Part shown: positions 3,319 through 20,438 of the stretch, piece after piece | Layout of the letters: every line of letters begins with the position of its first letter | Position numbering within the stretch: position 1 is the stretch's first letter | DNA from: an uncultured Clostridia bacterium | GTDB taxonomy: Bacteria; Bacillota; Clostridia; Oscillospirales; Acutalibacteraceae | DNA length: 64,000 nucleotides | Direction of reading: 5' to 3' | NCBI GenBank assembly: GCA_946555465.1 | Contig: CAMNST010000004.1 | Location: 124,001-188,000 of the forward strand | The notes under the pieces: model-generated | What the model was told of the DNA's origin: nothing | What the model saw: the letters and a program-made list of their open reading frames with translations, nothing else | Databases searched by the model: none | Position numbers and translations under genes: made by a program

Positions 3319-3636
3319 ATGCAGACAAATAATGTAACCTCAGCCCAGAAAACTTCTACATTCCAAATGAGGATTAATCCTGAAGTGAAAAAGGAAGTAG
3401 AGCAGATTTATGCAAATTGCGGAATGACTTTGACGGATGCTATAAATGCATTCATTCAACAATCAATCAATGTTGGCGGTATGCCGTTTTTAGTTAATCA
3501 GAATTCAAAAGAGGCATTGCGTCAGCAGGCAATAGCATATTTAATGGCAGAATTGAAAATGGGCGAAAATTCAGTGAAAAATGAAAGTGATTGGATTTCG
3601 GAAGATGATATTCTTGCTGAATTTGGTGCTGAATAA
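3319..3636 (+). CDS. relB: Type II antitoxin, RelB/DinJ family
   Basis: A 105-aa antitoxin with an N-terminal ribbon-helix-helix (about residues 11-55: FQMRINPEVKKEVEQIYANCG then LTDAINAFIQQS), the RelB/DinJ dimerisation and DNA-binding fold. The C-terminal 50 residues are acidic and would wrap the toxin. It overlaps the toxin gene by one base (TAATG), ensuring coupled translation. RBS AGGAGATG precedes the ATG. Autoregulation through the palindrome at 3246-3268 is inferred. On mobile DNA such pairs stabilise the element, which fits the tRNA fragment just downstream. Confidence 0.88.
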   Translation: MQTNNVTSAQKTSTFQMRINPEVKKEVEQIYANCGMTLTDAINAFIQQSINVGGMPFLVNQNSKEALRQQAIAYLMAELKMGENSVKNESDWISEDDILAEFGAE

Positions 3637-3944
3637 TGAAGTTAAGATATACACCACAAGCAAGAAATGATTTAAGAAATTTCAAGCAATATATTTCTAT
3701 AGAACTTTGCAACCCACAGGCAGCAAAAAGGGTTGCTGAAAAAATTGTAAAAGATTGTTCCAATCTGAAAAACAATCCGTTTTTAGGTCCTGAACTGAAA
3801 AGTAAATTAGATGTAGATACAGATTTAAGATATCTTATTTCATCTAATTACATAGTGTTTTATCAAATTAAAGATGATGTTATATCCATTATTCGTATTT
3901 GTGATGCAAGAACAAATTATATAAATATCTTGTTTGAAGATTGA
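3636..3944 (+). CDS. relE: Type II toxin, RelE/ParE family
   Basis: A 102-aa basic protein with the RelE/ParE pattern: N-terminal strand and helix (LRYTPQARNDLRNFKQYI), a conserved central NNPFLGPEL stretch, and the C-terminal strand block ending with IIRICDARTNYINILF (ParE-type R-x-x-D/H-x-R-x-x-x). Members are either ribosome-dependent mRNA endonucleases (RelE/YafQ) or gyrase poisons (ParE); sequence alone does not settle which. It is translated from a one-base overlap with the antitoxin and followed by a terminator hairpin at about 3991. Confidence 0.88.
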   Translation: MKLRYTPQARNDLRNFKQYISIELCNPQAAKRVAEKIVKDCSNLKNNPFLGPELKSKLDVDTDLRYLISSNYIVFYQIKDDVISIIRICDARTNYINILFED

Positions 3945-3990
3945 TTTATTATTAAGTTGGATTTTTATATTGTTCGTCATCAAATTTTGG

Positions 3991-4031
3991 GGTAGGGGTA
4001 CTGTAAAATATACAGTGCATCCCTACCTTTT
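3991..4031 (+). terminator. Terminator after the toxin-antitoxin pair
   Basis: GGTAGGG (3991-3997) pairs with CCCTACC (4021-4027) and CTGTA (4001-4005) with TACAG (4011-4015), followed by TTTT. The rest of the 3945-4272 gap holds the tRNA fragment and the 4237 hairpin; I see no gene in it. Confidence 0.7.
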
Positions 4032-4183
4032 GATTATTATAATGCAAACTTCAACGACCACTTATTGACCATTTATTATCGGAAAATGGTTTATAATGAG
4101 AGTGCCGGATGAAAAATAATACTTACAATGGATAAAAGAAAGTATTAAAAATCGTTATAAATCATTAGATTTATCTATCCAGT

Positions 4184-4233
4184 GCTGTTTCGTAATCAGT
4201 AGGTCAGCGGTTCGAATCCGCTTACCAGCTCCA
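4184..4233 (+). pseudogene. tRNA-Thr(CGT) 3' fragment, probable attachment site
   Basis: The sequence from 4184 reads as the 3' half of a tRNA: anticodon loop TTCGTAA (anticodon CGT, Thr) with its 3' stem TCAGT, variable loop AGGTC, a perfect T-arm (AGCGG, loop TTCGAAT, CCGCT), the acceptor strand TACCAGC, discriminator T and CCA. The D-arm and 5' acceptor strand (expected GCTGGTA) are missing upstream, and the 5' anticodon stem carries a mismatch. It cannot be a working tRNA. A 3'-half copy is what tyrosine-recombinase integration into a tRNA gene leaves at the far end of an island, so this probably marks the right boundary of an element extending left of the window. Confidence 0.75.
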
Positions 4234-4236
4234 AAA

Positions 4237-4265
4237 AAAGAGGTTATCGTTTTGATAACCTCTTT
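4237..4265. terminator. Bidirectional terminator hairpin
   Basis: A perfect 12-bp stem, AAAGAGGTTATC (4237-4248) and GATAACCTCTTT (4254-4265), with a five-base loop and A/T runs on both sides. It lies just after the end of the leftward permease gene and directly after the tRNA fragment, so it works for the ABC operon and could have served the intact tRNA. Confidence 0.8.
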
Positions 4266-4272
4266 AATATTA

Positions 4273-6435
4273 TTATTTTATTGCATCGTCTTTGAGGACA
4301 TCAGCTATGTTTGCATTCAGTATTTTTTTGCCGCTTATATAGTATGACAGTGCTATTGCTAATAGCATTATTATGGCAAATATAATTGTCGGCAGGATAG
4401 GTGCATTTTGTAAAAATTCGCTTAGAGTTATTCCATTATCTGATGTAGTAAGCAGAATAAACAATATATTAAACGGTATGCTGAGCAATATCGGTTTCAC
4501 GCCAATAACAAGTGCTTCTATTGAAAGAATTTTTGCAGTGCTTTTCGGTGTTACACCTATGGACTGATATTCTGCAAATTCTCTTTTTCTCTGCTGCATA
4601 TATCCAAGCGTATTCGCAAAAACATTTGATATACCGATACAGGCAAGAATTGCACAAATCATTGTGATGATACTTTTATAGCCGCCGTACATCTGCACGT
4701 TCGTATCATATGCATCCACTCTGTTTTCAATCGTGTAATTGAATTTATCACCCAAAATCTGTTTTATTTCATTTTCGGTTTCTGCAAGATTATCATCCGC
4801 ATTCGTGTTGATATTGATATAAAATGTATCTGCCGACCCCACATCAGTTAATGTATTATACGAACTTTCGGACATTATCTGGAGTAAACTGTATTTATCA
4901 AAATCCTTTCTGATTTGCGGTACATTTTGAGAATATCCAATGACATTTACTTTTTCAGAATCTGACTGCATTAATAAATTCAGTGAAAAGTCATCATCAA
5001 CTTTTATAAATGGTATTGACTCACTATCATCTGAATCATAATAAAGGACTTTGCCTATTTTGTTTACAACAACGGAATTCGGATAATTATCCTTCCTGTT
5101 TACAATATTATTTTCAGCACAGTATTGTTCAAAACTGTAATCATCAAGAATAAGCACGGGTGCATTAATGACATAATCGCCATTATCATTCTGCTTAGCA
5201 TTCGTATTCATAGTTTTGTAACCGCCGTTTTCAATAAGCTCATCACTTAAATCAGTTTCCGTTAATACGGTTTGAAAATTCATCGTTTTATAAAGCTGTG
5301 CCGAAGAAATATTTTCTGTTTTTCTTATTTTATTAAGAATTTTGTCGTCAGGGCTTTCACCTTTAACCTCAACCATAATATCCCACACATTTTCATATCT
5401 GTTCCAATAGGATTTGCTTGTGCTGATTTCGGATATTGTCATAAAGTTAAGGAAAATGCTTAGTACAAAGAAAGACAGCATAAGACAAATTGTTGCCGTT
5501 CGGAATTCCTTTCGCCTTACATAAATTGATTTGCGAGCAAGTTCGCCCTCAACACCGAATAGTTTTGAAAACAATTTATATTTTCTTATTCTCTTAACCT
5601 TTTTTATTGTCTGTCCTTTAACAAGTTCAATAGACTCGCTTTTGCTGAGTTTTCTTGCAGGCAGCCATATGGAAACAAGCACTGTAAGCATTGTTACGGC
5701 AAAGGTTGCTATAAACAAAACGATATGATAATGAAGTTTTGCTCCCTGCAAGCCTATCTGCGAAGTAAAGGTATTTGCATATTTTATAAAGAGTGCATCT
5801 AATCCCACACCTGCTGCAATTCCGGCAACTACTGACGGTATACTCAGCACCAAAGCCTCCTGCACCATAACCGCTCTTAACTGCTTTGGTGTCGCACCAA
5901 CACTTTGCAGAATTCCGAGCTGTCTTATTCGTGTGTTCATTGAAAAACTGAAAGCGTTTTTGATAATCATTATCAGTGATGCGCACATCATCAATATGAT
6001 TGCACCGTAAAGCAGTTCAATCGGCATAGGCTGTTCACCGTTTTCCTTTGAATAAATAAACTGCTTTTGCAAAAGTGAACTGTGGTATTCAATATCATCA
6101 CTATTGATATTCAGCTTTTCGGCAATTAAAGGCATATCTTCATAAATATCAGACGGTTTTATAAAATAAACTTCGATCGATTCCGATTGTATAACCTTAT
6201 CAACATTTGCAAAATTTTCTATAATTTTTATCTCATCATCAGAGAGTGCGGCAGTAATTCTGACCTGCCAATCGCCCTCATCTGCCTTGATTCTTTCCAT
6301 ATCATCTATCCGCATATTGTAAAAAAGTGTACAAAGAAAAGAGATAAACATTGACGCTACCAGCACTGCAACCATAATTGAAACTGCAGTTGACTTGTTT
6401 TTCTTTAAGTAATTCACAGAATAATCCTTCCACAT
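4273..6435 (-). CDS. ABC transporter permease, FtsX/MacB-like, duplicated
   Basis: A 720-aa membrane protein with two FtsX domains. An N-terminal membrane helix (about 15-40) is followed by a soluble region of about 100 residues. Three helices (about 145-262) carry the first FtsX core, and another helix lies near 310-332. A soluble extracytoplasmic domain of about 250 residues precedes three C-terminal helices (about 590-700) with the second FtsX core. This eight-helix layout fits macrolide- or antimicrobial-peptide-type exporters and lipoprotein movers rather than importers. Substrate unknown. RBS GGAGGT precedes the ATG, 16 nt after the ATPase gene. It is the last gene of a regulator-kinase-ATPase-permease operon, so it is probably induced by the stress the kinase senses. 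Confidence 0.88.
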   Translation of the reverse strand: MWKDYSVNYLKKNKSTAVSIMVAVLVASMFISFLCTLFYNMRIDDMERIKADEGDWQVRITAALSDDEIKIIENFANVDKVIQSESIEVYFIKPSDIYEDMPLIAEKLNINSDDIEYHSSLLQKQFIYSKENGEQPMPIELLYGAIILMMCASLIMIIKNAFSFSMNTRIRQLGILQSVGATPKQLRAVMVQEALVLSIPSVVAGIAAGVGLDALFIKYANTFTSQIGLQGAKLHYHIVLFIATFAVTMLTVLVSIWLPARKLSKSESIELVKGQTIKKVKRIRKYKLFSKLFGVEGELARKSIYVRRKEFRTATICLMLSFFVLSIFLNFMTISEISTSKSYWNRYENVWDIMVEVKGESPDDKILNKIRKTENISSAQLYKTMNFQTVLTETDLSDELIENGGYKTMNTNAKQNDNGDYVINAPVLILDDYSFEQYCAENNIVNRKDNYPNSVVVNKIGKVLYYDSDDSESIPFIKVDDDFSLNLLMQSDSEKVNVIGYSQNVPQIRKDFDKYSLLQIMSESSYNTLTDVGSADTFYININTNADDNLAETENEIKQILGDKFNYTIENRVDAYDTNVQMYGGYKSIITMICAILACIGISNVFANTLGYMQQRKREFAEYQSIGVTPKSTAKILSIEALVIGVKPILLSIPFNILFILLTTSDNGITLSEFLQNAPILPTIIFAIIMLLAIALSYYISGKKILNANIADVLKDDAIK

Positions 6436-6450
6436 AAAACCACCTCCGAA

Positions 6451-7134
6451 TTAAAGGCTTGTGCTTTTATCGGAAACGATTTTTCCGTCTTCGATTGTTA
6501 TAATTCTGTCTGCCTGCAAAGCAACATTTTCATCGTGGGTAATCAGAATAATCGTCTGATTATAACTTTTGTTTGATAATTTAAGCAGATCAATAATTTC
6601 CTGTGAATTTTTACGGTCAAGATTACCCGTGGGTTCATCTGCAAGAATGATTGCAGGGCGGTACATTAATGCCCTTGCAATCGCAGTTCTTTGCTGCTGA
6701 CCGCCTGATAACTGGTTAGGATAACTGCTCAATTTTTTTTGCAAACCAAGTATGGATGTTACTTCATAAAAGTAACTTTCGTTAAAGTTCTTTTTATCAA
6801 GTTTGAGAGGCAGCAGAATATTCTGTTCTACTGTTAAAGTCGGTATCAGATTATAAAACTGATAAATCAATCCCACTTTTCTGCGTCTGAATATTGCGGA
6901 TTTTTCTTTGTTCAGATTTGAAATATCCTTGCCGTCAATATAAATTTTGCCCGAAGTTGCCTTATCAACAGTTCCGATTAAATGAAGAAGTGTTGACTTG
7001 CCCGATCCCGATGCACCGACGATTGCAACAAATTCACCTTTATTGACAGACAGGTTGATATTATCAAGTGCTTTTTGCTGTGTTTCGCCGCCTCCATAAA
7101 TCTTTGTTACATTTTCACATTTCAGTATTTCCAT
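6451..7134 (-). CDS. ABC transporter ATP-binding protein (LolD/MacB family)
   Basis: A 227-aa ATPase with all motifs: Walker A GASGSGKS (about 40-47), Q-loop YQFYNLIPTLT, signature LSGGQQQR, Walker B IILADEPTGNLD and the H-loop histidine in ILITHDENVA. The TGNLD Walker B extension is typical of LolD/MacB/FtsE-type ATPases that pair with FtsX permeases, matching the next gene. RBS AAAGGAGG lies just upstream, and the kinase gene ends 51 nt before. It should power the 720-aa permease. Substrate cannot be told from the sequence. Confidence 0.93.
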   Translation of the reverse strand: MEILKCENVTKIYGGGETQQKALDNINLSVNKGEFVAIVGASGSGKSTLLHLIGTVDKATSGKIYIDGKDISNLNKEKSAIFRRRKVGLIYQFYNLIPTLTVEQNILLPLKLDKKNFNESYFYEVTSILGLQKKLSSYPNQLSGGQQQRTAIARALMYRPAIILADEPTGNLDRKNSQEIIDLLKLSNKSYNQTIILITHDENVALQADRIITIEDGKIVSDKSTSL

Positions 7135-7185
7135 TTTGAAACCTCCTTTTATTTTAATGTGATGATAACAAAGAAAAGTGACAAC

Positions 7186-8337
7186 TTAGTGACGGTAAAA
7201 CCTTATATTAAACCGTGCTCCGCAATTTTCAGCATTTTCGGCAGTAATAAAGCCGTTCTGCATTTCAATAATGGATTTTGCAATAGAAAGACCAATTCCG
7301 AGACCGCCTTTTGAATTCCTGCCCTGATAAAACCTTTTGAATATATTTTTCAAATCTTCTCTGTCAAAGCCTGTTCCGTTATCACTTATGGTTATTTCTG
7401 TATAAAGCGGATTAACAGAATAATCAAAACTGATTTTTCCGTTTTTAGGCGTATGCTCGGTACAGTTTTTAATTATGTTGATAAACGCCTCCGTACTCCA
7501 ATCCATATCACCCAAAAATGAAGCATCACTATGATTCGGTAACTCAATTTCAATATTCTTTTGCTTAATATTTTGCTCTAATTCTTCAACAGACAGTTCA
7601 AGCAAAGTATAAACATCAACCTCATTTTTCTTTAATTCAAGAACACCTGCATCTATTTTAGACATCAAGAGCAGTGACTCAACAAGCCTGCTCATTCTTT
7701 TGATATGTTTGTTTATAGCAGAACTGTTTTCGCTGTTGTCAACCTGTGTGATTAAAGAAATATTTGTTATAGGTGTTTTAATCTGATGGGCAATATTTGC
7801 AAGGCTGTCTGCAAACTCAATGCGTTCATTTATTGCCGTATCCTTTGCAATTTTCATTTCGGTAACTGTTTTGCATATTTCGTCCTGCAAAAGACTGAAC
7901 ATATCTTCTTTCTGTGAAATGATTTCAATATCTTTTCCCGCATTAATCTGTTCAAGATAAGCGGTTAATTCCTGAATTCTGTTTTTATTTTTCTTATTGA
8001 TAAAATAAATTATCCCTGCAATAAGCATAACAAAAATGATTATGCAGGTGATTACCGAGATAACCGATACAACAGTATAAGGCTGTAAAAAGTCTGCTGC
8101 ACTGAAACCATATGAAGTTAAAGTATCATTTTCAGTATTACCGAGATGATTATTCTTAACGATTTCAATTATTTTCTGTTCGCTGTTCGGATATTCTGTA
8201 ATTAACTGTTCTGCCAAAGCAGATGTAACCTGATATTGATTATTTGCATAAACAAAAGACAGAATTGATGTTGTTAACAAACTGACACACAAAGTAATCG
8301 CAATTATAAATAGTGGCGTTTTAATCTTTTGCTTCAC
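7186..8337 (-). CDS. Sensor histidine kinase
   Basis: A 383-aa membrane kinase. Two membrane helices (about 9-29 and 88-112) flank a sensor region of about 58 residues outside the cell. The H-box is ANIAHQIKTPITN with phospho-acceptor His184. The ATPase domain has the N-box (INIIKNCTEHTP), G1 (ISDNGTGFD) and G2 (GGLGIGLSIAKS). It starts with GTG, preceded by GGAGG six bases upstream inside the end of the response-regulator gene, leaving a one-base gap. The partner is the OmpR-type regulator upstream. Its extracellular loop is longer than in BceS-type intramembrane sensors, so a soluble ligand is possible. Confidence 0.92.
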   Translation of the reverse strand: MKQKIKTPLFIIAITLCVSLLTTSILSFVYANNQYQVTSALAEQLITEYPNSEQKIIEIVKNNHLGNTENDTLTSYGFSAADFLQPYTVVSVISVITCIIIFVMLIAGIIYFINKKNKNRIQELTAYLEQINAGKDIEIISQKEDMFSLLQDEICKTVTEMKIAKDTAINERIEFADSLANIAHQIKTPITNISLITQVDNSENSSAINKHIKRMSRLVESLLLMSKIDAGVLELKKNEVDVYTLLELSVEELEQNIKQKNIEIELPNHSDASFLGDMDWSTEAFINIIKNCTEHTPKNGKISFDYSVNPLYTEITISDNGTGFDREDLKNIFKRFYQGRNSKGGLGIGLSIAKSIIEMQNGFITAENAENCGARFNIRFYRH

Positions 8338-8338
8338 A

Positions 8339-9001
8339 CTAATCCTCCATTCTGTAGCCGAAACTGCGGATAGTTTTAATACAGGAGGGATTTCCTAACT
8401 TTTCTCTTAACCTTTTCATGGTAACGGTTAAAGTGTTGTCATTGACAAAATTGTTATTATCATCCCAAAGTGATTTCAAAAGCTGCTGCCTTGTAACGGT
8501 GGCGTTTTTATTTTTTATCAAAATCTGTAAAAGTTGATATTCCATAGCACTTAATGTTATCTCTTTATCATTCAAAAACACTTTCAATTTATTATCATCA
8601 AGTAAAATATTATTACAAATGTATATTTTATCCGAGTTTTTACTTCGTCTGAGCAATGCACAAATTCTTGAATAAAGAATATCAAGTTCAAACGGCTTTG
8701 TAATATAATCATCAGCACCAATGTCAAAGCCTGATACTATATCACCGGTTTCATTTTTAACTGTTATGAAAATCACAGGCAGGTCAGGATAACTTTTTCT
8801 AATCCACTTGCATAAATCCGTTCCATTACCGTCACATAAATTTATATCAATAAGGCAAAGTGCAGGTATCTTATTTTTTATACTGTTTTTCGCTGAGTTT
8901 ATTTCCGAAAACACAGAAACAAAAAATCCCTTGCTTTCCAAATAAGTTTTCACGCTCTTTGCAATATCTATATCATCTTCAATGTAAAATATATTTTTCA
9001 T
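8339..9001 (-). CDS. OmpR/PhoB-family response regulator
   Basis: A 220-aa two-domain regulator. The receiver has acidic residues E8/D9/D10, phospho-acceptor Asp52 (CLIDINL), Thr80 and Lys102 (YITKPFE). The C-terminal winged helix (about 125-218) ends with the recognition region NTLTVTMKRLREKLG and the FGYRME wing. The sequence fits the family that controls peptide-antibiotic ABC exporters, and the two ABC genes downstream are the probable targets. An extended -10 (TGTTAAAAT) lies about 30 nt upstream on the minus strand, overlapping the start of the degenerate rightward frame. RBS GAGGT precedes the ATG. Confidence 0.93.
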   Translation of the reverse strand: MKNIFYIEDDIDIAKSVKTYLESKGFFVSVFSEINSAKNSIKNKIPALCLIDINLCDGNGTDLCKWIRKSYPDLPVIFITVKNETGDIVSGFDIGADDYITKPFELDILYSRICALLRRSKNSDKIYICNNILLDDNKLKVFLNDKEITLSAMEYQLLQILIKNKNATVTRQQLLKSLWDDNNNFVNDNTLTVTMKRLREKLGNPSCIKTIRSFGYRMED

Positions 9002-11248: not shown

Positions 11249-12919
11249 TTATTTACACTCTGTGCATACATACTCCGGCACGGTTCGTTCATTGATTACC
11301 GACTCATAAAGGCGCCAGCCTCCTGCAAGGTTATAGCAATCATATCCGTTGCCCTGCAAAATTCGGCAGGCAATATAACTGCGAAGACCTGAATGACAGT
11401 GAACATATACCGGCTTATCCTTTGGTATTTCGCTGATTCTTTCCCGCAGGGTATCAAGTGGAATGTTGGTAAAGCCATCAATTTTTCCGTATTCAACTTC
11501 CGTAACCGTTCTTGCGTCAAGCAAGGTTACACTGCCATCACGCGGAAGACAATCAACATCGTGCCAGAAAAATTGCTTTATTTTGCCTGTTACAATGTTT
11601 TCAGCCACAAAACCCAACATGTTTACAGGGTCTTTTGCACTTGAAAACGGCGGAGCATAACACAGTTCCAGTTCAGTAAGATCGGTTATTTTTCCTCCAA
11701 AGCGTATTGCCGTTGCAAGAACATCCATTCTCTTGTCAACTCCGTCAAAGCCTACAATTTGAGCACCGATAATTTTCAGGCTTTTCTTATCCCATAATGC
11801 TTTAATTGACATCATATTCCCATTGGGGTAATATGATGCATGTGAGGACGAATAAATATATGTTTTTTCATAATCTATTTTGTCTAATTGAGCGGTTTTT
11901 TCATTAAGTCCGGTTGTTGCAACAGTCATATCAAAGAGTTTAAGAACAGCAGAGCCTTGTGTTCCGGTATATTTGCTATTGATGCCTGAAATATTATCAG
12001 CCGCTATTCTTCCTTGTTTGTTTGCCGGTCCTGCAAGAGGAATAAATGCGGGTGATTTTGTAACAAAGTTTTCTGCCTCAACTGCATCTCCAACTGCGTA
12101 GATGTTAGGAATATTTGTGCACATATTGTTATCAACGATTATACTGCCTTTTGCATTTGTTTTGATTCCACAGTCCTGTGCAATAGCCGTTTCGGGACGA
12201 ACTCCCACGGACATAATTACCATATCGGCTTTTATTTCGCCTTTCTGAAGAATAACCTTGCTGCTCTCAATAGCGGTAACACCATTATTCAAATAAAGTT
12301 TTATCCCTTTTTGCTTGATGTAGCGGTGAACATCTGCCGCCATATCAAAGTCAAGAGGTGCAATAAGGTGGTCTGCAAGTTCAACTATTGAAACATCAAG
12401 ACCTGCTTTTGCAAGATTTTCGGCCATTTCAACGCCGATATATCCGCCGCCAACCACAACTGCTGTTTTCGGCTTTTCTTTTTCAATATAACTTTTTATT
12501 TTGAATGTGTCGGGGATATTTCGCAGAGTGAATACATGGTTTGCATCTATGCCCTTTATGTTTGGCTTTATTGGTTCGGCACCGGGAGAAAGAATAAGAT
12601 TATCATATTTTAACGAATATTCTTCTCCTGTAACAATATTTTTAACAATTACGGTTTTTTCATCAGGATTTATTTTTGTTGCCTCGTTAAACACACGAAC
12701 ATCAATATTAAACCTTGACTTGAAACTTTCGGGAGTTTGCAGAGTTAAATTCTCCCGGTCGGTAATTTCTCCGCCGATGTAGTAGGGCAATCCGCAGTTT
12801 GCAAAAGAAACAAACTCTCCTCTTTCTAAAATAATAATTTCGGCTTGTTCATCAAGTCGTCTGAGTCTTGCGGCAGCGGATGCACCGCCTGCAACACCAC
12901 CGATAATAATTGTTTTCAT
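11249..12919 (-). CDS. CoA-disulfide/persulfide reductase fused to a rhodanese domain
   Basis: A 556-aa fusion. The FAD dinucleotide-binding site GGVAGGASAAA is at 8-18 and the redox-active cysteine of the CoA-disulfide reductase/NADH-oxidase family is Cys42 in SFANCGLPYY. The NAD-binding motif VVGGGYIGVEMAE follows near 155-167, and the second FAD motif is NIYAVGDAV. The C-terminal rhodanese domain (about 455-540) has the loop VHCHSGLRS with Cys508. Known enzymes of this architecture reduce CoA-disulfide and CoA- or polysulfide persulfides with NAD(P)H. The last residues add a CTEC tail. It is the first gene of the leftward redox operon and diverges from the Crp/Fnr gene. Confidence 0.93.
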   Translation of the reverse strand: MKTIIIGGVAGGASAAARLRRLDEQAEIIILERGEFVSFANCGLPYYIGGEITDRENLTLQTPESFKSRFNIDVRVFNEATKINPDEKTVIVKNIVTGEEYSLKYDNLILSPGAEPIKPNIKGIDANHVFTLRNIPDTFKIKSYIEKEKPKTAVVVGGGYIGVEMAENLAKAGLDVSIVELADHLIAPLDFDMAADVHRYIKQKGIKLYLNNGVTAIESSKVILQKGEIKADMVIMSVGVRPETAIAQDCGIKTNAKGSIIVDNNMCTNIPNIYAVGDAVEAENFVTKSPAFIPLAGPANKQGRIAADNISGINSKYTGTQGSAVLKLFDMTVATTGLNEKTAQLDKIDYEKTYIYSSSHASYYPNGNMMSIKALWDKKSLKIIGAQIVGFDGVDKRMDVLATAIRFGGKITDLTELELCYAPPFSSAKDPVNMLGFVAENIVTGKIKQFFWHDVDCLPRDGSVTLLDARTVTEVEYGKIDGFTNIPLDTLRERISEIPKDKPVYVHCHSGLRSYIACRILQGNGYDCYNLAGGWRLYESVINERTVPEYVCTECK

Positions 12920-12938
12920 AGTAATTCACATGACCTTC

Positions 12939-13042
12939 CCGGCTACAAATAATAATTGATAATCACGACATCCTTGTTGTAGCCGGACAAGGCGTGAATG
13001 AATTCAGCCATCTCAAAATTATGCCAAAGGCAAATTTTTGAG
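12939..13042. promoter_or_regulatory. Two inverted repeats in the CoADR leader
   Basis: CCGGCTACAA (12939-12948) and TTGTAGCCGG (12977-12986) are perfect 10-bp arms around 28 nt. CTCAAAA (13012-13018) pairs with TTTTGAG (13036-13042), with TGCC/GGCA inside. Both would lie near the 5' end of the leftward CoA-disulfide reductase transcript and could be operators or mRNA structures. Nothing in the sequence says which. Confidence 0.45.
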
Positions 13043-13055
13043 GGCAATATAACAT

Positions 13056-13150
13056 TTGATTTTCTTTCAGTGTGAGTTATAATCTCCTGCTGAAACGGGA
13101 TGCGCCCTTAATAAATGTTGACGTTCAGGCGTTTGCATTGATTAAATCAA
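13056..13150 (+). promoter_or_regulatory. Promoter and Fnr-like palindrome before the Crp/Fnr gene
   Basis: TTGATT (13056-13061) and TATAAT (13078-13083), spacing 16, form a promoter. TTGATTAAATCAA (13138-13150) is a perfect 13-base palindrome close to the Crp/Fnr consensus TTGAT-N4-ATCAA but with three central bases. Lying downstream of the start point, it would suit autorepression by the encoded regulator. Confidence 0.5.
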
Positions 13151-15447: not shown

Positions 15448-16689
15448 ATGTCAAAATCATTAGGATATAAAAACAACTATTCGCTGAAACTTTTTCTTGC
15501 CTGTTGGGTAGCATATTTTTCTACATATATATGCCGGCTTAATTTTTCAATCGTAACTCCCGAACTTGTAAAAAATGATGTATTAACACAACCGCAGATT
15601 GCTGTTGTGTCATCGGCATTTTTTATTTTCTATGGTACAGGGCAACTTTTCAGCGGAATTCTCGGTGACAAAGTATCGCCAAGATTATTGGTGTTTGCAG
15701 GTACATTTATTTCTGCATTAAGCAATATACTGATATTTTTCTTCTGCAAATCACATATGGCGCTTACTTTTCTGTGGGGTATTAACGGAATTGTTCAGTC
15801 GTTGGTGTGGTCACCGATTTTAAGAATTGCAGGTGATTATTTTGATGAAAATGATAAAGAAAAATTTGCAACGGATATATCAACAACCGTAACGCTCGGC
15901 ACGCTTTCAAGTTATGCGGTGGGGCTTGTTACAATGCTGTTTCTTCCGTGGAATTATGTCTTTTTAACTTGCGGAATATGTACTTTAGCCGCCTCTTTTT
16001 TCTGGATAAAGCAAACGGGTAAATTGAATTTGTATAAAGATTCGCTTCAGAATAAAGCAATCAAGCAAAAATCAGATTTGTCATTAAGGCAGTTTATAAA
16101 ACTGTTTGCAGTATCAGGCTGTGCAATACTGCTGATACCGATTGCAATACACGGCACGCTTAAAGACGGTGTTACACAGTGGATGCCGACATTTTTTTCT
16201 GATAAATTTAATCTTGGTACAGATATTTCCATTCTGCTTACGATGATACTTCCCGTAATAAATGTATCGGGTGCGTATATAGCACGTGCAATTAATAAAA
16301 AACTGAAGAATATAATGAGAACTTCTTTGGCTTTCTTTTCCGTGACAATACTGTTTTTGGTTTTAATTCGTTTTATAGGAATAAACAGTTCGCTGTTTTC
16401 TCTGGTGTGTTTGGCGGTTGTTACTACCTGTATGCATGCGGTTAATGTTATGTTTATAACAATGGTTCCGCTTCAGTTCGGAAAATATGGCTGTGTAAGC
16501 ACAATGGGCGGTGTGCTTAATTCTTCTGCTTATATCGGCTGCGGAATACTTAATATTGCAGCAGGCAATATATTAGATGGAAATTCATCTTGGAACATGC
16601 TGTTTTTATTTTGGATTTTGTTATGCACGGCTGCAATTATTTTTACTGTTATATGTTCAGTAATATGGAAAAAATTTATTAAAAGATAA
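15448..16689 (+). CDS. MFS transporter, organophosphate:phosphate antiporter-like
   Basis: A 413-aa, 12-helix major facilitator. The first loop, YICRLNFSIVTPEL, resembles the GlpT/UhpT family, as does the GTGQLFSGILGDKVSPR loop 2-3 motif. Family members exchange glycerol-3-phosphate, hexose phosphates or related phosphoesters for phosphate. It is co-transcribed with the intracellular phosphodiesterase, which may act on the substrate. No strong RBS is visible, so translation may be coupled to the upstream gene six bases away. A terminator follows. Confidence 0.85.
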   Translation: MSKSLGYKNNYSLKLFLACWVAYFSTYICRLNFSIVTPELVKNDVLTQPQIAVVSSAFFIFYGTGQLFSGILGDKVSPRLLVFAGTFISALSNILIFFFCKSHMALTFLWGINGIVQSLVWSPILRIAGDYFDENDKEKFATDISTTVTLGTLSSYAVGLVTMLFLPWNYVFLTCGICTLAASFFWIKQTGKLNLYKDSLQNKAIKQKSDLSLRQFIKLFAVSGCAILLIPIAIHGTLKDGVTQWMPTFFSDKFNLGTDISILLTMILPVINVSGAYIARAINKKLKNIMRTSLAFFSVTILFLVLIRFIGINSSLFSLVCLAVVTTCMHAVNVMFITMVPLQFGKYGCVSTMGGVLNSSAYIGCGILNIAAGNILDGNSSWNMLFLFWILLCTAAIIFTVICSVIWKKFIKR

Positions 16690-16691
16690 AA

Positions 16692-16722
16692 AGAGGCTGT
16701 TATTTGAACAGCCTCTCTTTTG
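16692..16722. terminator. Bidirectional terminator
   Basis: AGAGGCTGTT (16692-16701) and AACAGCCTCT (16707-16716) with flanking A and T runs, placed between the convergent MFS and Dcd-like genes. Confidence 0.85.
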
Positions 16723-16729
16723 TGTTTGC

Positions 16730-17914
16730 CTATTTTGTTTTTGAAATGATGCTGTCAATTAAACTTGGCAGAATGGCAGCAGCGACAGTTATGGGAATTT
16801 CAGAGCCATCAGGGAGAAGGTTCGCTTTTTTTAACAGCAAAGCAACAATAATCGTCAATACAGTAGTTATAAACAGCCATGAGCGATGATTTGCAAGAAT
16901 TGCAAAAAACTTTTTTATTTTGCTGAATTTCTGATAAAAGTTTACATGAGAATCTATAAGTGTATGTATTTGTTTTACATTTTCGCAAAGAAGAATGTAG
17001 TCACACTCTTTTTTCAGAACAGTAATTTTACCATCAATTTCATTAACTTTTTGGCTGTGTATATAATAATTTTCGTCATCAAGATATTTTTTTAAATCAT
17101 TGATTTTTAATTTCAGTTCTTCATTTTTATCAAAATTGAACCAATCAAGTGAACTGATTAATGATTTTGCTTTTACGACATCATTTTCATATTTCAAAGC
17201 ATTTCTTATCTCAATTAAATGTTCTTTTATTTTATTGATATCCTTATATATATCTGTTTCAACATGTGTAAAATTATCCAGTTTTTCAACAAGTTTTTTG
17301 AATTTTCTGTATCCGGAATTATGTATAAAGTGATTGGGTTCCCTTGAAAGTTCTTTTAATATATCTATTCTCATTGCGGGATTATCAAGATTAAAGTCAT
17401 CAAGGGTTGAAGTGTTATCATCATCTTTTTCAGATTTAATACCGGTGAGAACTACTGTTGCAATTCCGATTTTTTCTTCTACGCCCTCAAAAATTGTGCT
17501 CAACTGAACATTGATTCGTCTGTTTGTGGTATTGTTGATTGCTATAAGAAACATACCCTGCCAGTTTGGGTCAAGCGTTGTTGAAATATGCCCTAAACCT
17601 TCGCTTACCCGTCTTACCCTTGAATAAAAGTTGCCTGCAACATTAGAATCAAGTTTAAAATATTCATTGGACAGCACAAGTGCCGTGTCGTGGGGACCAA
17701 GTTTAAAATATCTGCCGTCTTTGTAATCATATATTGTGAGCAGTTTGCGTTTTGCCAGTGAATATACCATATTTGAGGCAGTTAAATTATAACCGACACC
17801 TTTAACCTGGCTTTCATTGTATGGGGCAATAATGACCGTGGTTAAATTTTTTCTGAAATTTTTAATATCGGTTGTGGAAAACTGCCTGCAAAGGTTATCT
17901 TTTTCAGTCGGCAT
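16730..17914 (-). CDS. dCTP-deaminase-fold protein with coiled coil and membrane anchor; putative defence partner
   Basis: A 394-aa three-part protein. Residues about 10-160 look like the dCTP deaminase/dUTPase trimer fold: VKGVGYNL, FYSRVRR (97-102), then TTLDPNWQG (112-120), which matches the Dcd motif DPGWxG. In Dcd the next strand reads LEFxN, where the Glu is catalytic; here it is IAINN, so that position is Ala125, and the fold is probably non-deaminating. Residues about 185-335 are charged, helical and partly coiled coil. The C-terminus has two hydrophobic segments (about 346-362 and 373-390). It overlaps the upstream deaminase gene by 11 nt with RBS GAGGAGG. I infer a nucleotide-sensing membrane effector or a partner of the deaminase. 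Confidence 0.75.
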   Translation of the reverse strand: MPTEKDNLCRQFSTTDIKNFRKNLTTVIIAPYNESQVKGVGYNLTASNMVYSLAKRKLLTIYDYKDGRYFKLGPHDTALVLSNEYFKLDSNVAGNFYSRVRRVSEGLGHISTTLDPNWQGMFLIAINNTTNRRINVQLSTIFEGVEEKIGIATVVLTGIKSEKDDDNTSTLDDFNLDNPAMRIDILKELSREPNHFIHNSGYRKFKKLVEKLDNFTHVETDIYKDINKIKEHLIEIRNALKYENDVVKAKSLISSLDWFNFDKNEELKLKINDLKKYLDDENYYIHSQKVNEIDGKITVLKKECDYILLCENVKQIHTLIDSHVNFYQKFSKIKKFFAILANHRSWLFITTVLTIIVALLLKKANLLPDGSEIPITVAAAILPSLIDSIISKTK

Positions 17915-20201
17915 TTTTATCCTCCTCTTTTTTAGCCGGTTTTATGTAGTCTTTTGTTGAAACTTTATGACCCATCCAAAGTTCAAGTTCATCTTTTTTG
18001 GGGAGAAGCGGGGTATATAACTGCGTATATGCACGTCCGATTGCACCTGTAAACAATTCTTTTTCCGGCCTGCCGTCAACGCTTCCTGCGCTTAAAACAT
18101 GATTATTTGAAATTCCGGGATAGGGCTGAATATAGAAAATTTTTGATATTCCCATATACATTGCTTTTTTTGAGCAAAGTCCACAAGGACTTGATGTTGT
18201 AAACAAATATCCGTCTTTTATGCCGTTTATTCCGGTGCTGTTAAGATTTAAAAATGCTGTTTCTTCTGCGTGAAGTGCTCTGGTGTGAACCTGATTTTTG
18301 TTGTTTGTTATTTCGTTATATATATCTTTAAAGCAGTAAGAAATACTTCTTCCTTTCTCTTTCAGAATGCAGTCAGTCGTGCCGTAATATTCTTCAACGG
18401 CTTTTTTAACATCTATCTGAAATTTATCTTTATCATCATTTTCGTAATCGCTGTACGCTTTGGGATTGTAATGATTGCTTAATTCATTAAGGTCTCTGTA
18501 AAGGCAGGGTACCTGATCTTTTGGCTGCTGATTCCAGCCGATTGATTTTAAATTGAATTCATTATCCGTTATGACGGAACCTACCTGACGTGAAATACAG
18601 CCGGAACAGGATTTGGCCGTGTTTGCAATCTGCATACAGCGTTCAACATCGGTTGGAAGAACAAGTCCGGGATACATTATCAAAGATACATAGCGAAGCA
18701 TTTTTTTCTTCAGTTTTAGATAACTGTTGCTGTCATCCTCATTATTGATAAATATATCTGCCGATTCAATACAGTCTTCCACATTCTGCATAATGAAGGG
18801 ATATGTGGAATCCGCATTCAGTTTTGACATACCGTTAACTAAATAAAGAATTTTTTCGCAGCCTTTTAAAACATCGTCAATCAGTTCTTTTTCAGCATGG
18901 TTTTGCTTTTCTTTTTCCTCGTCGGATGTATCTGCCGGGGTTTTCGGTTCGGTTTCAGAATCCGCATTTCCTTTTAATAATTTTGATGTTATATTTTTGG
19001 CTGTCTCGCCATAGGCTTTCTGCCATGCTTTATAATCTTTCTGAATTTTTTTAAATGCAGAAAGCTGCTCGGTTATATCTATTGACTGAATATCTTTTAA
19101 CTCAAGATGATAATTGTGTTCAAGGCGCTCTTTTCTGCATTTTTCATCCGTATAAACAGCAAGAAGATAATAGTTTGAATACCGTTTCTTTAAATACATG
19201 GATTCAAAAGGGTTTTTAATGGAGTCAATTACAATAAAAGCACGTCTTTCTTCTGTAAGTACAGACTCTTTAATTTCACTGTTTTGTTTTTTCATCAACT
19301 CAGTTTTTTTGGATTTATAATCTCTCAGCAGTTTTATGCTGATGTTAATCAGTTCGGCAATTCCGCAGTAGCCGTCTTTTGTAAATTCGCAATCAGAGAG
19401 CGGGTTGTTTTTTGTTATTCTTAATTTGTTTCCCATATCCTGAAGTGCATTTGTTTTTAAATTTAATTTTATTTCATGATTCAGGTCATACCAAAATTTG
19501 CTGCAAATTTCAGGCAGAATATGGTATATATATTTATAAAGTATATAATAAATCAAAAAACTTTCAAAACCGCTTTTGCTGAGACGCAATTCTTTATATT
19601 TGAAAAATAATGCATTTATATTACTGACTGTTGTTTCAAAATAATATTTATCCCCGTTTTTTTGTATGCTGCTGTTTGTTATATGGTTTTTTATTTCTCT
19701 GTTAAAAACTTCTGCTTCATTTTCAATATCAATTTTATCGGATATATCATCAAATTCAATTTTAATCATTTTTTCAGGTTTGTCAGAATAAAATGAATTT
19801 TCAATGATATCATGAATTCGTTCTTCTAATTTATCAACAACAATGTTTTCGGATTGTTTTGTAAAACTAAAGAGATAATTTGTAAAACTTTCGGCATCTT
19901 TATTTATTGCTGTTGATACAATAAGACTGCTGGTTTTTATTTTGTAAAAATTTTTCCAGTTTCGTTCTGCAAAGTTATGAAGAATGCGGTATTCTGTTTC
20001 TTCAATTTTTGCTTCGCTTTCTTCGCCGGGCAGGGGCAGTTGCAGTTCTTCAAAATTCTTTGTCAGAATATTGGAAACGGTCGAAACGCCGGAGCCTGTT
20101 TTTCCGCACAGACCCAGAACTACAAATTCTTTTTGTGAATCAAATAAATTTTCCACAATATTTAAACTGTTTTTTCCTTTTTCACATATATCTGCTGCCA
20201 T
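17904..20201 (-). CDS. P-loop plus deoxycytidylate deaminase protein (AvcD/DcdV-like defence enzyme)
   Basis: A 765-aa protein starting at the ATG with GGAGG eight bases upstream; a TTG 15 bases earlier falls inside the RBS. The N-terminal P-loop GKTGSGVST (33-41) has Val39 where Walker A has Lys. A kinase-like core includes FIVIDSIKNPFESMYL. A charged linker (about 425-450) leads to a C-terminal deoxycytidylate deaminase domain: SRQVGSVITDN, then HAEE (zinc His644, catalytic Glu646) and SSPCGLC (zinc Cys673, Cys676). AvcD/DcdV proteins have this order and deplete dCTP pools on phage infection. This one is longer than the roughly 500-550 aa I recall for that family. It forms an operon with the Dcd-fold membrane protein. 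Confidence 0.82.
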   Translation of the reverse strand: MAADICEKGKNSLNIVENLFDSQKEFVVLGLCGKTGSGVSTVSNILTKNFEELQLPLPGEESEAKIEETEYRILHNFAERNWKNFYKIKTSSLIVSTAINKDAESFTNYLFSFTKQSENIVVDKLEERIHDIIENSFYSDKPEKMIKIEFDDISDKIDIENEAEVFNREIKNHITNSSIQKNGDKYYFETTVSNINALFFKYKELRLSKSGFESFLIYYILYKYIYHILPEICSKFWYDLNHEIKLNLKTNALQDMGNKLRITKNNPLSDCEFTKDGYCGIAELINISIKLLRDYKSKKTELMKKQNSEIKESVLTEERRAFIVIDSIKNPFESMYLKKRYSNYYLLAVYTDEKCRKERLEHNYHLELKDIQSIDITEQLSAFKKIQKDYKAWQKAYGETAKNITSKLLKGNADSETEPKTPADTSDEEKEKQNHAEKELIDDVLKGCEKILYLVNGMSKLNADSTYPFIMQNVEDCIESADIFINNEDDSNSYLKLKKKMLRYVSLIMYPGLVLPTDVERCMQIANTAKSCSGCISRQVGSVITDNEFNLKSIGWNQQPKDQVPCLYRDLNELSNHYNPKAYSDYENDDKDKFQIDVKKAVEEYYGTTDCILKEKGRSISYCFKDIYNEITNNKNQVHTRALHAEETAFLNLNSTGINGIKDGYLFTTSSPCGLCSKKAMYMGISKIFYIQPYPGISNNHVLSAGSVDGRPEKELFTGAIGRAYTQLYTPLLPKKDELELWMGHKVSTKDYIKPAKKEEDKNAD

Positions 20202-20348
20202 AATAATTACCTCCAAAGTGTAAGCGAATATTTTTGCTTATATTATATAGTTGCAAAAAACGTCAAAAAGTGACATTTTATTTTCAATAAAATATAAATG
20301 TTTTTATCAGATTTACAATTATTTAATATGTTTTGTTTTGTTTTTTTA

Positions 20349-20412
20349 TTGACAAATCCGGTGGCTTGTGATAGGCTGAATATAAACTGTGATATCTTTG
20401 ATGTCACAGTTT
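20349..20412 (+). promoter_or_regulatory. Promoter and leader hairpin of the PIG-L gene
   Basis: TTGACA (20349-20354), then an extended -10 (TG at 20369-20370, TAGGCT 20372-20377), spacing 17. A perfect 9-bp hairpin, AAACTGTGA (20384-20392) with TCACAGTTT (20404-20412), lies in the early leader. It could be a repressor site or an mRNA structure. The minus-strand promoter for the deaminase operon should lie near 20240-20270 but is weak. Confidence 0.5.
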
Positions 20413-20438
20413 AGAATTATATTCTTGGAGAAGATAAA

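Follow-up and report, generated by a model that had tools for sequence, protein, structure and literature searches.

A predicted membrane-anchored DCD-fold protein beside a DcdV-like deaminase: a candidate deoxypyrimidine sensor

We describe a gene pair in a 64,000-nucleotide stretch of DNA, hereafter the window, from an uncultured Clostridia bacterium of the Acutalibacteraceae (contig CAMNST010000004.1, positions 124,001 to 188,000). The first gene encodes a DcdV/AvcD-like deaminase. The second encodes a protein which we name DCD-TM, with a DCD-fold domain that has lost the Glu and the Arg of deoxycytidine triphosphate (dCTP) deaminase (Dcd) and is apparently dead, a helical region and two hydrophobic C-terminal segments. 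Tentatively, and with slightly less than even confidence, we propose from sequence comparison that DCD-TM is a membrane-anchored sensor or regulator of deoxypyrimidines, coupled here to a dCTP-consuming deaminase. In each of the 28 DCD-TM loci examined, an enzyme gene for making or using deoxyuridine nucleotides lies on the same strand no more than 3 kb away (a raw, uncontrolled count), and this linkage suggests that DCD-TM senses or controls those nucleotides. The node of deoxyuridine triphosphate and monophosphate (dUTP/dUMP) is the common denominator of its partners. That DcdV/AvcD deplete nucleotides is established; what restrains these toxic enzymes, and whether their products are sensed at all, is to our knowledge open outside the case of the AvcI RNA. 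A conserved membrane-anchored pseudo-Dcd found with dCTP deaminases, deoxycytidine monophosphate (dCMP) deaminases and dUTPases is a testable candidate sensor; it connects a module of the defence type with a thymidylate locus of cyanobacteria, and it may serve as a marker for finding undescribed defence operons.

Both open reading frames (ORFs) lie on the minus strand, 17904-20201 and then 16730-17914, and share 11 bp, which confirms the overlapping two-gene unit of an earlier note made from the letters of this DNA. The upstream ORF encodes 765 amino acids from the ATG at 20201, or 770 from a TTG at 20216; the downstream one encodes 394 from an ATG. From the overlap we infer translational coupling, and a single operon is most likely. 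The features of the pair are as follows.

17904-20201, minus strand: DcdV/AvcD-like deaminase gene, 765 amino acids, alternative TTG start at 20216 (ORF, PADLOC dCTPase, NF041025)
20079-20114, minus strand: P-loop-like glycine-rich motif, residues 30-41 (translation)
17994-18806, minus strand: zinc deoxycytidylate deaminase domain, residues 466-736 (best NF041025 stretch)
18261-18272, minus strand: HAEE motif, residues 644-647 (translation and alignment)
18174-18188, minus strand: PCxxC motif, residues 672-676 (translation and alignment)
17904-17914, minus strand: 11-bp overlap of the two genes (ORFs)
16730-17914, minus strand: DCD-TM gene, 394 amino acids, with DCD-fold domain lacking the Dcd catalytic residues, helical region and two hydrophobic segments
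17507-17869, minus strand: DCD-like domain, residues 16-136 (PF22769, E 1.3e-8; same place in a second search, E 3.9e-9)
17531-17623, minus strand: DCD-TM family motif at the former active site, residues 98-128 (S-R-V ... G-H-I-S-T-T-L-D-P-x-W-x-G ... N-N), with the Dcd Arg and Glu replaced
16904-17362, minus strand: helical region, residues 185-337 (AlphaFold model, low confidence)
16823-16879, minus strand: hydrophobic segment 1, residues 346-364 (Kyte-Doolittle; model helix 344-363)
16742-16798, minus strand: hydrophobic segment 2, residues 373-391 (Kyte-Doolittle; model helix 372-393)

The DCD assignment of the 394-residue protein, first made in the earlier note, holds in the Pfam search, where the match at residues 16-136 lies above the curated cut-off. 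Against TIGR02274, the dCTP deaminase equivalog, the protein scores 24.3 bits for a cut-off of 92.8, and a profile-profile comparison of the 26-member DCD-TM family with five Dcds gives a probability of 97%. The catalytic residues are lost: A125 and S104 align with the catalytic Glu and the Arg of Dcd, and in the alignment each of these two residues is present in all five Dcds and in none of the 26 DCD-TM proteins. The catalytic Glu is E138 of E. coli Dcd (numbered after the title of 2j4q), and the Arg, part of an SSLAR-type motif, is a conserved Dcd residue. Other positions are kept to differing degrees. V100, T112 and N128 occur in 26 of 26 members; the motif-3 Asp is kept in 17, the window protein included, and is Asn in eight and Ser in one; the motif-1 Asp is Asn in the window branch (10/26) and Asp in seven members.

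Replacing the motif-3 Asp of human dUTPase by Asn abolishes catalysis while substrate binding remains, and DCDs form homotrimers that have an allosteric loop and are regulated by dTTP, as reported in PMC4827122 (dTTP, deoxythymidine triphosphate). E. coli Dcd with a changed Glu still holds dTTP (2j4q) or dUTP (2v9x), as the titles of these structures state. Among solved structures, the sequences nearest to DCD-TM belong to dUTPases of the DCD family: 8y1w from Thermococcus pacificus and 9ln0/9ln3, dUTPase P45, one of them containing dUMP according to its title. Like DCD-TM they are without the Dcd Glu, but they consist of a single domain of 155-156 residues; their SSLAR motif is absent from DCD-TM, and the window branch also lacks the motif-1 Asp. 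For the window protein the Pfam dUTPase model (PF00692) does not appear at E values up to 1, and a cyanobacterial member matches it at E 8e-4, under the cut-off.

Hydrophobic C-terminal segments are found by Kyte-Doolittle analysis in 26 of 26 members, and the pair of segments that the earlier note placed at the end of the window protein is there. Two terminal segments occur in 18 members, among them the branch found on mobile elements; the other eight have one segment followed by 19-33 further residues, and the segments align poorly across the family. For the window protein AlphaFold predicts a domain of beta structure followed by long helices (residues 200-337) and a helical pair at the end. 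The coiled coil proposed earlier survives only as a helical region modelled at low confidence. PADLOC gives no family match for the protein, and no CBASS-type or SLATT two-transmembrane effector family is listed for it in Pfam or PADLOC, searches in which short transmembrane regions are often missed.

The family has a patchy distribution and is rare among the relatives of the window's genome. A maximum-likelihood tree places all 26 intact sequences apart from five canonical Dcds, across a branch with support 100/99, and the window protein is sister, again at 100/99, to that of G1067, a genome from another family of the same order (34% identity over 321 residues). DCD-TM occurs in 2/394 genomes of the order including the window's own, in 1/200 of the window's family, in 1/87 of the family of G1067 and in 1/398 of a sample of the window's phylum, where three further matches are open frames of 182-190 amino acids, the size of a plain Dcd. 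One Priestia and one Peribacillus plasmid carry it among 72,556 plasmid records, and tblastn with three DCD-TM proteins against all plasmids returns only these two Bacillus-group records. A pattern-limited scan adds a UBP16 bacterium and Nostoc flagelliforme, whose phylum has DCD-TM in 22 of 386 genomes, that Nostoc included (E 1e-12 or better). It was not found in phage records, none was confirmed in viral contigs, and 40 other genomes of the genus have no DNA-level match inside the two-gene cassette. The window's own genome (97% complete) encodes one dUTPase elsewhere and has no further DCD-family match. Broken copies of DCD-TM were seen near a dUTPase gene (L035, the second copy of N. flagelliforme) and near ThyA and dCMP deaminase genes (L045, another genome of that phylum).

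The deaminase is more familiar. The 765-residue protein matches the PADLOC dCTPase family (E 6.5e-108) and Pfam dCMP_cyt_deam_1 (PF00383, E 3e-12), and with HAEE and PCxxC in its translation the zinc deoxycytidylate deaminase of the earlier note is borne out. Against NF041025, the anti-phage dCTP deaminase model, it reaches E 1.4e-94 and 317.5 bits, under the curated cut-off of 400 bits, and for this reason it is called DcdV-like only; one of 299 genomes of the phylum passes that cut-off. Strong NF041025 matches, some of them partial genes, occur in eight of the 299 (E 1e-27 or better, a dividing line of our choosing), and 25 weaker ones cover the deaminase core only. Compared by tblastn with an annotated anti-phage dCTP deaminase, the protein aligns in three pieces that reach from residue 16 to residue 752 and cover 64%. 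Of the P-loop domain that had been claimed, a P-loop-like glycine-rich motif can be read; no Pfam P-loop model is significant (ABC_tran 0.19, AAA_18 0.44), and Val occupies what we take to be the Walker A Lys position.

The neighbourhoods of DCD-TM bear on its role. Loci were picked by DCD-TM alone, 26 with intact and two with broken genes, and neighbours were identified by tblastn at E 1e-8. Stand-alone dCMP deaminases are found in 13 loci, dUTPases in 10 (plus one short match), canonical Dcds in four and DcdV-like deaminases in three (the window, G1067 and UBP16), some loci having two of these. Same-strand ThyA-like genes accompany 14 of the 28 and nucleoside deoxyribosyltransferase-like genes 12, both families having been identified on a representative cyanobacterial locus, L042, whose ThyA-like protein has the methanogen type as its best NCBIfam match, below cut-off. 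Distinct arrangements are DcdV-like with DCD-TM, DCD-TM with dUTPase, all three together, Dcd with DCD-TM, and the ThyA/deaminase locus. Directly downstream of DCD-TM, the two Bacillus-group plasmids and UBP16 have the dUTPase gene, which in UBP16 joins the pair as a third gene. The window and G1067 pairs are 49% identical over 460 residues in the deaminase part. The recurrence of the pair in G1067 and UBP16 speaks for more than a chance pairing. In L042 the cluster (3497-7082) encodes DCD-TM together with a dCMP deaminase, a deoxyribosyltransferase-like protein and a ThyA-like protein that has a DUF4346 domain; similar sets were seen in L037, L039-L041, L043-L048 and L050, the deoxyribosyltransferase and DCD-TM being incomplete in L045.

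Several relatives lie in a defence-type setting. PADLOC was applied to the surroundings of three of the four non-cyanobacterial relatives (Peribacillus, Priestia and UBP16) and of Nostoc, and these three of the four sit among defence genes. On the Peribacillus plasmid a SIR2 gene assigned to PDC-S25, a PADLOC candidate (E 3.2e-159), ends 30 bp before DCD-TM. The Priestia copy has in its vicinity a BnzB-like gene of Bunzi (E 1.1e-65) and, by annotation, a type I restriction subunit; the UBP16 locus has an NsnA-like gene (E 2.2e-28) on one side and, on the other, two genes of a type II restriction-modification system. The Nostoc copy is near a helicase with an MkoC match that may be generic, and many cyanobacterial DCD-TM genes are located in chromosomal thymidylate loci. 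On the Peribacillus plasmid (L003) the SIR2 gene at 6342-7883 and DCD-TM at 7914-8957, which abuts the dUTPase gene, could possibly form a three-gene defence operon.

On the proposal that we tentatively prefer, DCD-TM would still bind a nucleotide in its DCD pocket, most likely dUTP or dUMP and possibly dTTP or dCTP, its C-terminal helices would hold it at the membrane, and it would act as sensor or regulatory partner of the adjoining deoxypyrimidine enzyme. In the window it would read the pool which the deaminase changes. It might restrain the deaminase in healthy cells, or, upon an infection-linked rise in deoxyuridine nucleotides, release the deaminase or act on the membrane. The module of the mobile-element branch is probably anti-phage, and DCD-TM in the cyanobacterial thymidylate loci probably serves pool control. 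The earlier suggestion that a deaminase and a non-catalytic nucleotide sensor act together is partly supported: homologies, lost residues and linkage stand, while binding, gating and defence are what we infer from them.

Several observations weigh against this proposal. The reference enzymes for the neighbour test were picked after the neighbourhoods had been inspected, and the 28 loci are not independent events, many being cyanobacterial and sharing one locus by descent. The structure model of DCD-TM is of poor quality, with a mean predicted local distance difference test (pLDDT) score of 49.9. The motif-1 Asp is retained in seven members, hence other branches might still be enzymes. Co-occurrence, which the earlier note had put forward as a check, is found in G1067 and UBP16, but DcdV-like genes often stand without DCD-TM: none is present around seven other strong DcdV-like genes of the phylum (in fetched regions, two on short contigs; these genomes also belong to the phylum sample in which the window's is the sole long DCD-TM match), nor in five opened DcdV plasmid loci (of which the Aeromonas one is unannotated and the Picosynechococcus one is truncated where its record ends). 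AvcD is moreover controlled by RNA, as reported in PMC10511110 and PMC9455884. These DcdV-like loci show that the deaminase can do without DCD-TM and that DCD-TM joins several partners, and together with the RNA control of AvcD they argue that the deaminase does not need it. In G1067 the N-terminal 290 residues of the deaminase left no significant trace in the region, so this pair may be decaying, or only the deaminase half may be needed. As for a defence island, the three relatives above answer to it, but among the window's own neighbours none of seven scanned proteins is clearly a defence protein, with only generic ATPase and methyltransferase matches. Two observations on DcdV-like genes may be added: the G1067 ORF (L124, 4959-6308) begins without that N-terminal part and is not at a contig end, and in G358, of the same phylum, a DcdV-like gene without DCD-TM is followed by a partial dUTPase ORF.

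A membrane effector is the first rival. Here dUTP from DcdV or phage metabolism would bind a DCD trimer, the C-terminal helices would open or disrupt the membrane in abortive infection, and a dUTPase at other loci would be the antidote that keeps dUTP low. The two terminal segments of 18 members with the mobile-element branch among them, the downstream dUTPase on the two plasmids and in UBP16, and the three loci among defence genes speak for it. Against it stand the eight members with a single segment and a further tail, the poor alignment of the segments and the lack of a dUTPase beside the window pair, and chromosomal thymidylate loci are an odd place for a dedicated killer. The variable segment number and the thymidylate-locus members make us favour gating or sensing, and we consider a killing pore improbable, if worth keeping in mind. 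Somewhat more doubtful still is a bolder idea, that DCD-TM is the founding member of a new immune class of membrane proteins reading deoxyuridine nucleotides: dUTP or dUMP from a DcdV-type deaminase would be the signal, a dead Dcd trimer the receptor and dUTPase, where present, the off switch, and the class would derive from a thymidylate-pool regulator that survives in cyanobacteria.

A quite unlikely alternative is a metabolic scaffold that only tethers deoxypyrimidine enzymes to membrane or replication sites, without a defence role, the DcdV-like gene of the window being a recruited pool-control enzyme. The ThyA-like, dCMP deaminase, deoxyribosyltransferase-like and active-type Dcd genes found as same-strand neighbours within 3 kb would suit it, but the distribution is patchy (1/398, 2/394 and 1/87 as above), the closest branch is on plasmids with defence-gene neighbours, and DcdV is a known anti-phage family. 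Least likely of all, DCD-TM would have remained enzymatic and, as a nucleotide hydrolase or DCD-family dUTPase bound to the membrane, would clear the dUTP made by DcdV, for which its nearest solved relatives, dUTPases likewise without the Dcd Glu, and the motif-3 Asp of the window protein and 16 further members speak, but from which the motif-1 Asn of the window and nine others, the motif-3 Asn or Ser of nine members, the vanished SSLAR-type motif, the missing Pfam dUTPase match and the real dUTPase gene beside 10 of 28 lead away.

Compared with known systems, we regard the pair as a variant of nucleotide-depletion modules with a DcdV-like deaminase. The window deaminase resembles DcdV/AvcD, including AvcID of Vibrio, in its zinc-deaminase motifs and strong PADLOC match, and differs in scoring below the NF041025 cut-off. 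AvcD converts dCTP and dCMP to dUTP and dUMP and inhibits phage; its protection from T5 is unaffected by loss of Ung or over-expression of Dut, as reported in PMC10511110 and PMC9455884. The lack of effect of Ung and Dut argues against dUTP as the poison of AvcD, but not against dUTP as a signal here. The partner of AvcD in the AvcID toxin-antitoxin is an RNA antitoxin, whereas in the window a membrane DCD-fold protein replaces such an RNA or comes in addition to it; no Rfam family reaches its gathering threshold in the window, and an AvcI-like RNA was not found by that scan. With Dcd and Dcd-Dut (PF22769, TIGR02274) DCD-TM shares the fold of residues 16-136 and differs by the absent Glu and Arg, the added helical region and hydrophobic segments, and a clade of its own. 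Clover (CloA/CloB) resembles the proposed role in that it senses dTTP, by which an effector that depletes nucleotides is controlled; it shows that deoxypyrimidine sensing in defence exists. Clover differs in using a dGTPase and a nucleotidyltransferase, and the accessible part of its description (PMC12265719) mentions neither a DCD fold nor a membrane part. The DefensePredictor account (PMC13092281), in the part accessible, has dUTPase among unvalidated predicted defence domains, a comparison by description and not by gene content. In line with the earlier note, which knew of no system with this pairing, we found no account of a membrane protein with a DCD fold as partner of DcdV, and the DCD-TM family appears undescribed, in the literature searched, mainly non-subscription papers. 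On a Geminocystis plasmid (L054, 3341-4660 and 4980-6863) an annotated anti-phage dCTP deaminase gene is divergent from a dGTP triphosphohydrolase gene, possibly a pair of dNTP-depleting defences (dGTP, deoxyguanosine triphosphate; dNTP, deoxynucleoside triphosphate).

The flanks of the window pair hold two further features.

16688-16720, either strand: terminator-like stem-loop, on both strands, between DCD-TM and a convergent major facilitator superfamily (MFS) gene (consensus scan)
20202-20438, minus strand: 237-bp region upstream of the deaminase gene with promoter-like sites and a 14-pair palindrome at 20383-20413 (consensus scan)

Around the pair the consensus scan sees five terminator-like sites where shuffles give 2.6, and 24 promoter-like sites for 16.9 expected. 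Folding of 20190-20438 gives z -2.95, with one of 200 shuffles equally good. The G+C content is 0.33-0.34 in the two 2-kb bins with the pair and 0.36-0.41 at 10-16 kb and 20-48 kb; the first 10 kb of the window are equally low (0.30-0.35), so this is a weak sign of foreign origin.

Elsewhere in the window we noted a dispersed element of about 150-165 bp that recurs in the genus. The window copy, at about 12920-13065 and read on the minus strand, ends at the ATG of the gene 11249-12919 (minus strand); 20 further copies were fetched (L125-L144), two of them from the window's own genome. The 3' boundary is an ATG with a short open stretch of 14-23 codons in 19 of these 20, and in the twentieth the ATG comes one base later. 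The genes that follow are unrelated, with aroQ-, purC- and hypF-like starts by eye, and the element has no Rfam match in the window. A consensus of 19 sequences (the window copy and 18 others, without L127 and L142) has 37 predicted pairs, 13 of which show at least one pair-keeping change on both sides, and the element is a candidate for a new cis-regulatory RNA or a mobile leader element.

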